Program-made: the position numbers and the translations under genes
Part shown: in pieces, positions 61,604 through 64,000 of the stretch
How the letters are laid out: each line of letters begins with the position of its first letter
Position numbering within the stretch: position 1 is the stretch's first letter
Assembly: GCF_014621695.1 (NCBI RefSeq)
Contig: NZ_CP061281.1
Location: forward strand, 1,674,001 to 1,738,000
Length of the DNA: 64,000 nucleotides
Origin: Streptomyces xanthii
GTDB taxonomy: Bacteria > Actinomycetota > Actinomycetes > Streptomycetales > Streptomycetaceae
Reading direction: 5' to 3'
Notes under the pieces: generated by a model
Databases searched by the model: none
Seen by the model: only the letters and a program-made list of their open reading frames with translations
Told to the model about the DNA's origin: nothing

Positions 61604-62383
61604 GTGACCAGCGACGACGACCTGAGCAAGGCCCCGGGCCGGGACGGCCTGCCGCCCGCCGACAGCCCGTTCCGCACCGAGCCCACCCCGCGTGACGAGG
61701 CCCCGCAGTTCGTGCTGCCGCTCGTGGCGCGGATCGAGCGGGCCGAGCCGCCCGCGCGGACGGCCGCCCTGGAGACCGCCGCGCGCGCCGTCCTCGTCCT
61801 GCTGTCCGACGACCGCGCGCTCGGCGACGGGGAGTGGGCGCAGGCCGTGCGGGACTGGCAGGACGCGCGGATCCGCAAGGTGGTGCGGCGGGCCCGGGGT
61901 GCCGAGTGGCGGCGTGCCGAGGCGCTCGACGGCATCACGGTGACGGGTGACGGAGCGCAGGTGCGGGTGTTCCCGCCGGTGCCGCTCGACGGCTGGCCCA
62001 AGGACCTGGCCCGCCTCCAGGTGTCCGGCACTGACCTCGACGACCCGGAGCCGCCGCCCGCCCCGGACCCCTCGGCGCCGGTCCTCTGGCTCAACCCCGA
62101 CCTCGGGATGACGGCGGGCAAGGCGATGGCGCAGGCCGGGCACGGCGCGCAGCTGGCCTGGTGGGCGCTGTCCGAGCCGCAGCGCAAGGAGTGGCGCGAG
62201 GCGGGCTTCCCGCTGGCGGTCCGTACCGCCGACCCGGCGCGCTGGGAGCCGCTGACCCGGGCCGGTCTGCCGGTGGTGCGGGACGCGGGCTTCACGGAGA
62301 TCGCGCCGGGTTCCTGCACGGTGGTGTCGGAGGGCGGCACCCGGTACGCGCCGCTGGGCCGCGTGACGGGGCAGTACGGCTGA
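61604..62383 (+). CDS. Pth2-like peptidyl-tRNA hydrolase family protein
   Basis: A 259-aa protein. The C-terminal 110 residues match the Pth2 family (LNPDLGMTAGKAMAQAGHGAQLAW and VVRDAGFTEIAPGSCTVV), which in archaea and eukaryotes recycles peptidyl-tRNA. The N-terminal 150 residues are a helical actinobacterial extension of unknown role. A standard bacterial Pth1 is expected elsewhere in the genome, so this is probably a second enzyme. GTG 61604 has CAGACT 6 nt upstream (leaderless). It is divergent from the ABC genes. Confidence 0.82.
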   Translation: MTSDDDLSKAPGRDGLPPADSPFRTEPTPRDEAPQFVLPLVARIERAEPPARTAALETAARAVLVLLSDDRALGDGEWAQAVRDWQDARIRKVVRRARGAEWRRAEALDGITVTGDGAQVRVFPPVPLDGWPKDLARLQVSGTDLDDPEPPPAPDPSAPVLWLNPDLGMTAGKAMAQAGHGAQLAWWALSEPQRKEWREAGFPLAVRTADPARWEPLTRAGLPVVRDAGFTEIAPGSCTVVSEGGTRYAPLGRVTGQYG

Positions 62384-62507
62384 GGCAGGCCCTCGGGCCG
62401 AACCTCAAATGTTGCTCTGAACGTCCTCGCTCGTGGATTCGGGCGCGCGCGGCGGGGCCATGACACCTGCACGCGGCAGCACGACCACGCGGCAGAGGGG
62501 GACGGAC

Positions 62508-63824
62508 ATGGAGCGCCTGACAAGGCTGGGCACGGGGATCGGCTGGCGGCCGGAGATCGCGGAGATCGTCGAGGCGATGCCCGGCATCGACTGGGTCGAG
62601 GCGGTCGCCGAGAACGTGTGCCCGGGTCATCTGCCCGAGTCGCTGGTGCGGCTGCGCGAGCGCGGCGTCACCGTCGTGCCGCACGGCGTCTCCCTCGGCC
62701 TCGGCGGCGCGGACCGGCCCGACGAGGGGCGGCTCGCGGATCTGGCGTCCCGCGCGCAGGCGCTGGGCGCGCCGCTGGTCACCGAGCACATCGCGTTCGT
62801 ACGGGCCGGTGGCGAGCGCACGGCGTCGCCGCTCCTGGAGGCCGGGCACCTGCTGCCGGTGCCGCGCACCCGGGACGCGCTCGACGTGCTGTGCGCGAAC
62901 GTGCGGATCGCGCAGGACGCGCTGCCGGTGCCGCTCGCGGTGGAGAACATCGCGGCGCTGTTCTCCTGGCCGGGCGAGGAGATGACGGAGGGCCAGTTCC
63001 TGTACGAGCTGGTCGAGCGCACCGGGGTCCGGCTGCTGATCGATGTCGCGAACCTGCACACCAACCACGTGAACCGGGGCGAGGACCCGGCGAAGGCGCT
63101 GGCCGAGCTGCCGGTCGAGGCGATCGCGTACGTCCACATGGCGGGCGGCTTCGAGCGCGACGGCGTCTGGCACGACAGCCACGCCCACCCGGTTCCGCAG
63201 CCGGTCCTGGACATCCTGGCCGACCTGGCCTCCCGGGTGACCCCGCCCGGCGTCCTCCTGGAGCGCGACGAGAACTTCCCGGACGACACGGCGGAACTGG
63301 GCCGCGAGGTCGAGCGGATCCGCGAGGTGGTGGCAGCGGCCCCGGCCGCCCCGTCGGAGAGGACCGGCGCGCGCTCCCGGCCCGACGCCCCCGAACCCGT
63401 CGCCGAGTCCACCCGCGGCCGGGTCGCCCTCGCCCAGGCCGCGCTGCTGTCGGCGCTGGTGGCCGGGACGCCCGCCCCGGAGGGGTTCGACCGGGTGCGG
63501 CTCGGGGTGCAGGCGCGGGCGCTGGCGGGGAAGCGGGCCGATGTCGTCGCCAAGGTGGCGCCCGAACTGCCGGAGATCCTGGGCGGGGCCGCGTACCGTG
63601 CGGCGTTCCTGGGGTACGCGCAGCGGCGGCCCATGACGGGCGGCTACCGGCGGGACGCGCTGGACTTCGCCGAGGACCTGCTGCTCGGGCAGCGGGTCAC
63701 GGAGCCGGGGGCCCGGCGCCGGCTGACCGACTGGTGGCTGGAGCGGTCGGGCCCGGCCCCGCTCTCGGGACGCCCGGTGGCGCGGGCACTGCGGGCCGCC
63801 CGGTTCGCGCTGCGCCGGGGCTGA
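62508..63824 (+). CDS. DUF692 (MNIO) family protein with C-terminal extension
   Basis: A 438-aa protein. Residues 8-275 are a DUF692/multinuclear non-heme iron oxidase TIM barrel; likely metal ligands are H59, H94 (TEHIAF), E146 (VENIA), D179, H187, H210 (YVHMAGG), D223/H225/H227 (DSHAHP) and E252. A linker (about 278-300) leads to a helical domain (about 303-435), perhaps the partner/peptide-binding domain often encoded next to MNIO enzymes. Known members oxidise Cys or other residues in precursor peptides (methanobactin, TglH, buf systems). No precursor is visible inside the window; the gene lies near the right edge. ATG 62508 follows GAGGGGG. Confidence 0.88.
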
Positions 63825-63935: not shown

Positions 63936-64000
63936 GGCAGCCCCATGGGCGGTCCGCCCTGCCCCAGGCCACCCCCGCCCCGCGGAATTCTCGTCCGCAT

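Follow-up and report, generated by a model that had tools for sequence, protein, structure and literature searches.

A single-chain MNIO enzyme with a probable built-in PME-type 2 partner domain in Streptomyces xanthii and its relatives

Analysis of a 64,000-nucleotide stretch of the Streptomyces xanthii genome (contig NZ_CP061281.1 of assembly GCF_014621695.1, positions 1,674,001 to 1,738,000; hereafter the window) revealed, at its right edge, a gene of the MNIO (DUF692) family whose product is very probably a single-chain MNIO holoenzyme with a PME-type 2 partner domain, the likely substrate in relatives being a Cys-containing protein tail. The gene is an uninterrupted reading frame of 438 aa with an ATG start, preceded by a purine-rich run (agaggggg, 62494-62501); the coordinates of its parts are collected in the table below. 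An AlphaFold2 model of the whole chain, computed from an alignment of 71 sequences (mean pLDDT 93.8, pTM 0.90), consists of a TIM barrel joined through a short linker (residues 278-299, approximately) to a helical C-terminal domain. In the loci examined, 118 fused MNIO-partner proteins were found, the window protein being one of them, so the fusion is not an artefact of assembly or reading frame.

Residues 9-275 match PF05114 (MbnB_TglH_ChrH) with 255.9 bits and E 4.8e-76, the cut-off being 25. The best Foldseek matches of the barrel in the PDB are TglH (8hci/8hi7), 3bww and MbnB (7dz9/7fc0/7tcr), with E values of 6.8e-19 for 8hci_B, 2.1e-17 for 3bww and 7.6e-14 for 7dz9_A. The TglH metal ligands His71, His107, Glu151, Asp184, Asn187, His216, Asp229, His231 and Glu258, as given in the accessible part of PMC10880893, have their counterparts in H59, H94, E146, D179, N182, H210, D223, H225 and E252 of the window protein. 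Seven of them were mapped directly by the TglH alignment; H59 and H94 fall outside it and were assigned via the alignment with 3bww, where each stands opposite a His. All nine positions are invariant in the 71 aligned sequences, and each of the 108 fused proteins in the genus set keeps them. An MNIO with the full ligand set and a second domain, which an earlier note on this DNA had recognized from the letters alone, was thus confirmed. The MNIO domain scores below the cut-offs of the equivalogs, the best NCBIfam match being BufB (NF050167; 174.8 vs 310 bits), along with HvfB (142.7/360), ApyH (121.8/400), ChrH (42.8/600) and MbnB (28.3/325).

The second domain comprises about 138 aa (residues 300-437), in good agreement with the helical domain of about 135 aa proposed earlier. 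It is all helical in the model (300-318, 329-350, 353-358, 360-373, 379-393, 400-414 and 423-437), with no strands predicted. A profile of 29 separately encoded MNIO partners from outside the genus matches the window C-terminus at E 2.1e-26. In 18,924 open reading frames (ORFs) at E <= 10, with matches within the 29 training loci dropped, this profile found 118 fused proteins, eight MNIO-adjacent genes and nothing else. Judged by these sequence comparisons, the C-terminal domain is an MNIO partner fused into the enzyme chain, the role that had earlier been suggested for it. The match to DUF2063 is weak (E 0.016-0.017, 15.8 bits vs the cut-off of 27.2); hhalign of the domain against four DUF2063 proteins gave a score of 23.05 (P 0.0047, probability only 7.4%), which exceeds all of 100 column shuffles (maximum 16.6). 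The top match in a structural search was MbnC residues 1-87, with a score that is not significant; TglI and the DUF2063 structure 3dee were absent among the structural matches, which we do not count as contrary evidence, and searching PDB sequences with the profile of partners gave a single chance-level NTF2-like match (E 0.16). This lack of a significant fold match would agree with an unrelated regulatory or dimerisation domain; that reading is nonetheless highly improbable, being nearly refuted by the E 2.1e-26 match to separately encoded MNIO-adjacent proteins and opposed by the alternation of fusion and separate gene in 74 of 75 loci.

This alternation was recorded in 75 other loci of the same MNIO type (L110, L111, L112, L114 and L166, with other MNIO types, are left out of the count): the partner is fused in 37, encoded separately in 37 and undetected in one. 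All 37 separate partner genes are located downstream of the MNIO gene, on the same strand and at a distance of at most 700 bp. Among the window and its 80 nearest relatives the fused form was found in 81/81, a set biased to near relatives, as it holds the best 80 of 392, all from Streptomyces. Fused loci outside the genus number ten, all in one further actinomycete family (f90). In the MNIO tree, built by a quick method from 89 thinned rows with SH-aLRT support alone and with five long rows flagged, there are six changes between the fused and split states, at least four of which are forced by supported branches. Five genus loci with a separate partner (L124-L128) cluster within the fused clade (supports 82-96), a pattern suggestive of secondary splitting of the fused form. 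The recurrent alternation marks the C-terminal domain as the working partner. Of 40 sampled genus genomes, 36 possess the MNIO (31 fused, 5 split); no MNIO match was found in three of the 40 (G171, G592 and G667), and G643 gave a partial 51-bit match alone.

The type of locus is already known, the MNIO-partner fusion being its new element. Antoine et al. (2025; PMC12452194) described, in the part of the article accessible to us, MNIOs linked to TIGR04222 proteins together with PME-type 2 partners, proposed Cys-tailed TIGR04222 proteins as substrates, and gave the gene order peptidyl-tRNA hydrolase - MNIO - TIGR04222 for one cluster (Table 2, row II, adjamnio-II). Consequently, the suggestion of an undescribed system in the earlier note does not hold. 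Its two possible objections, the absence of a conserved neighbour across genomes and a C-terminus unrelated to MNIO partners, were examined, and neither was found. The window locus resembles the published clusters in its order of a PTH-like gene (product with one Cys), MNIO and TIGR04222, and in a partner homologous to short post-MNIO proteins of Actinomycetota, but here the partner is fused, the PTH domain is PF01981 instead of PF01195, and the TIGR04222 protein is tail-less. According to the same part of that article, many TIGR04222/MNIO clusters appear to have no partner gene; an MNIO-PME fusion is mentioned neither there nor in the titles and abstract openings of the literature searched.

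Several other systems are comparable. First, TglHI of 3-thiaglutamate biosynthesis shares the MNIO fold, the nine ligand positions and a partner with a helical N-terminal domain, while its partner TglI is a separate protein that ends in an RRE-type domain (accessible part of PMC10880893); no strands are predicted in the partner domain of the window protein. Second, MbnBC of methanobactin biosynthesis also combines an MNIO with a partner, but as separate subunits, and the window MNIO is far below the MbnB cut-off. Third, the bufferin enzymes BufB/BufC, with DUF2063 (PME-type 1), are similar in BufB being the best NCBIfam match and in the faint DUF2063 resemblance; they differ in that both scores here fall below the cut-offs and no precursor with a Sec signal was seen. 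Finally, Vibrio MovX, compared by description only, carries in one chain with its MNIO an extra winged-helix domain with a possible partner role (accessible part of PMC12452194). MNIO genes accompanied by an above-cut-off DUF2063 gene were also encountered in G610, from the same genus, and in G590 (L215:22-576 and 573-2130; L213:1-624), in each case behind a gene for a long Cys-rich protein (184 and about 207 aa).

The N-terminal barrel would bind two or three iron ions and use O2 to oxidise a segment of a peptide, and the helical PME-type 2 domain would, by analogy with MbnC for MbnB and TglI for TglH, present the substrate. In relatives this substrate is most likely a Gly/Ser-Cys tail modified on the cytoplasmic face of the membrane. 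Outside the genus, 32 of 43 loci encode a TIGR04222 protein whose Gly/Ser-rich tail has 3-7 Cys within the final 60 residues; the copies of L109 and L170 have one and no tail Cys, respectively, and nine loci are without TIGR04222. In five of the latter (L165, L168, L169, L178 and L181) the tail is found instead on a tiny protein with a single transmembrane (TM) segment, and beside two fused MNIOs a Gly/Cys tail is carried by an upstream ORF (L167:3516-4943 and L176:5851-7206) in which neither a Pfam match nor a TIGR04222 core was found; no tail ORF was found in L179 and L180. The tail is thus what recurs, on different anchors, and the strongest candidate for the substrate: in relatives, the Cys tail of TIGR04222 or of other small membrane-anchored proteins is most likely what the enzyme modifies. 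The single-TM proteins (L165:5879-6145 and L168:4326-4625; tail ORFs L169 6258-6659, L178 4588-5730 and L181 4034-4933) are encoded between the MNIO and the separate partner gene, or in L181 after the partner, and are possible minimal MNIO precursors.

The charge distribution around the TM segments bears on the side of the membrane on which the tail lies. Tailed TIGR04222 proteins with three predicted TM segments (41/58) have on average 3.4 Lys and Arg residues after TM1, 0.61 in the TM2-TM3 loop and 4.02 after TM3, and tail-less ones (100/112) have 2.4, 0.8 and 2.8, respectively, some loci being included twice in these counts. Under the positive-inside rule, this pattern predicts an N-out orientation and a cytoplasmic Cys tail, on the side expected for the enzyme. 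Antoine et al. (2025), in contrast, place the tail in the periplasm (accessible part of PMC12452194). A cytoplasmic tail would shift the location of the modification and of any metal binding.

In the window genome the situation is different. The earlier note had expected a precursor just beyond position 64000, and a TIGR04222 membrane protein of 261 aa is indeed encoded downstream of the MNIO, its start lying about 50 bases beyond the window (L002:6050-6835; 134.1 bits, cut-off 43); however, it has no Cys after the core and no Gly/Ser-Cys tail, and hence is not an obvious precursor. A whole-genome search for TIGR04222 found only this tail-less copy. Of the 36 genus genomes with the enzyme, a multi-Cys-tailed TIGR04222 is encoded beside the MNIO in 15 and on another contig in one (G714); 16 have TIGR04222 lacking a multi-Cys tail, as far as the proteins were read, and four (G023, G193, G635 and G729) have no TIGR04222 above the family cut-off, so that a multi-Cys-tailed copy was not found in 20 of the 36. 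Some of the 16 genomes with TIGR04222 but no multi-Cys tail encode a remote, divergent copy: its C-terminus is Gly-rich with one Cys in G161 and G246 and is not of the multi-Cys kind in G675 and G182, whereas the profile missed the remote matches in G334 and G706, which leaves their C-termini outside the proteins read. Whole-genome DNA patterns for Gly/Ser-Cys tails were uninformative, as the reversed control matched more often in 19/21 genomes and in most of a set of 36.

The same picture was obtained at the level of loci. Of 85 genus loci with more than 4.5 kb of downstream sequence, seven are tailed, 67 have a tail-less TIGR04222 only and 11 have neither; the 28 of 113 loci with at most 4.5 kb were left out of this tally, and 10 of them are tailed (17/113 overall). 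Scattered near relatives (L041, L051 and L057) have retained tailed copies, and tail loss was therefore probably repeated within the genus. In the 75 tail-less loci with more than 4.5 kb downstream the median dN/dS is 0.139 for the MNIO part (2769 pairs, kept at dS 0.15-0.9) and 0.279 for the partner part, the corresponding values for 15 tailed loci being 0.236 and 0.372; the pairs are not independent, and synonymous sites are partly saturated in this GC-rich genus.

These data can be accounted for in several ways. The enzyme could be a relic that lost its tailed substrate and lingers through slow decay, as would fit both the failure to find a multi-Cys-tailed TIGR04222 in more than half of the enzyme-bearing genus genomes and the four of 40 genomes without the MNIO (including G643 with its partial match), which make the enzyme dispensable. 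Yet the nine ligands are intact throughout the 108 fused proteins, 93 of which come from stretches where no tail was found (18 of the 93 with less than 4.5 kb downstream), the MNIO part evolves at a dN/dS of about 0.14 in tail-less loci, and no frame damage was seen; we regard decay as quite unlikely. Alternatively, the tail-less TIGR04222 protein, whose gene immediately follows that of the MNIO in the window genome, could itself be modified at its own Cys residues C18, C22 and C194, conserved in 78, 81 and 80, respectively, of 87 distinct tail-less TIGR04222 proteins of the genus. These residues, however, are in or near the predicted TM1 and TM3, unlike a flexible tail, and three genomes (G023, G193 and G729; fused, fused and split) keep the enzyme with no TIGR04222 match at E <= 0.001, which leaves this explanation improbable, if less so than decay.

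A substrate encoded elsewhere in the window genome, with a Cys tail but without a recognisable TIGR04222 core, is a realistic though doubtful possibility: relatives carry tails on non-TIGR04222 anchors, and the tailed TIGR04222 of G714 is on a separate contig, while the whole-genome TIGR04222 search in the window genome yielded the tail-less copy alone. With somewhat more confidence, but still tentatively and short of even chances, we propose that in the Streptomyces clade of the window the fused enzyme was retargeted after repeated loss of the tailed TIGR04222 and is kept by purifying selection to modify another protein, possibly at residues other than Cys or encoded at an unlinked site.

The remaining genes of the locus are arranged as follows. 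The PTH-like neighbour carries PF01981 (PTH2) instead of the published PTH signature PF01195. A PTH2 gene was detected in 78 of the 92 genus loci that have more than 4 kb of upstream sequence and in 0/37 other loci. It was rejected as a core component of the system: in 77 of the 92 it precedes the MNIO on the same strand, yet the two ORFs are at most 300 bp apart in just 32. Loose spacing in the genus and absence elsewhere indicate that this neighbour probably reflects synteny only. The TIGR04222 gene is followed by an alpha/beta-hydrolase-like gene (sub-threshold matches only). Forward ORFs of at least 18 aa in the two gaps flanking the window MNIO contain no Cys, reverse-strand ORFs in the operon gaps contain 0-3, and a 19-aa forward ORF with two Cys lies in the TIGR04222-hydrolase gap, at most one ORF per frame being reported. 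In many genus loci a DUF4142 protein (PF13628, E 1.6e-20; e.g., L030:7793-8641) is encoded between the fused MNIO and the tail-less TIGR04222; it was not found in the locus of the window genome. Further downstream, on the opposite strand, HemQ, protoporphyrinogen oxidase and HemE genes are present (L002:8659-15003), the first two being found together in 67 of 68 near-relative loci with more than 4.5 kb of downstream sequence.

Table 1. Features of the fusion gene and its upstream neighbour in the window.
Feature	Position	Strand	Basis
MNIO-partner fusion gene, 438 aa	62508..63824	+	ORF, PF05114, AlphaFold2 model
MNIO (DUF692) catalytic domain, residues 9-275	62532..63332	+	PF05114, 255.9 bits; Foldseek PDB matches
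Codons of the nine putative iron ligands, H59 to E252	62682..63263	+	TglH mapping
Interdomain linker, residues 278-299	63339..63404	+	no regular secondary structure; pLDDT blocks 79 and 89
C-terminal partner (PME-type 2-like) domain, residues 300-437	63405..63818	+	match to the 29-partner profile
PTH2-domain protein, 259 aa from GTG 61604, 1 Cys	61604..62383	+	PF01981, E 2.8e-9

The fusion can account for some of the TIGR04222/MNIO clusters thought to be partnerless, namely those of the window's genus and of one further actinomycete family, and it offers a single-chain MNIO holoenzyme for expression. Moreover, as the enzyme is present in 36 of 40 genus genomes, what it acts on in tail-less strains can be tested in ordinary laboratory Streptomyces. 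If the proposed retargeting is true, the genus would possess a widespread protein-modifying enzyme that works without the hallmark precursor of its family.
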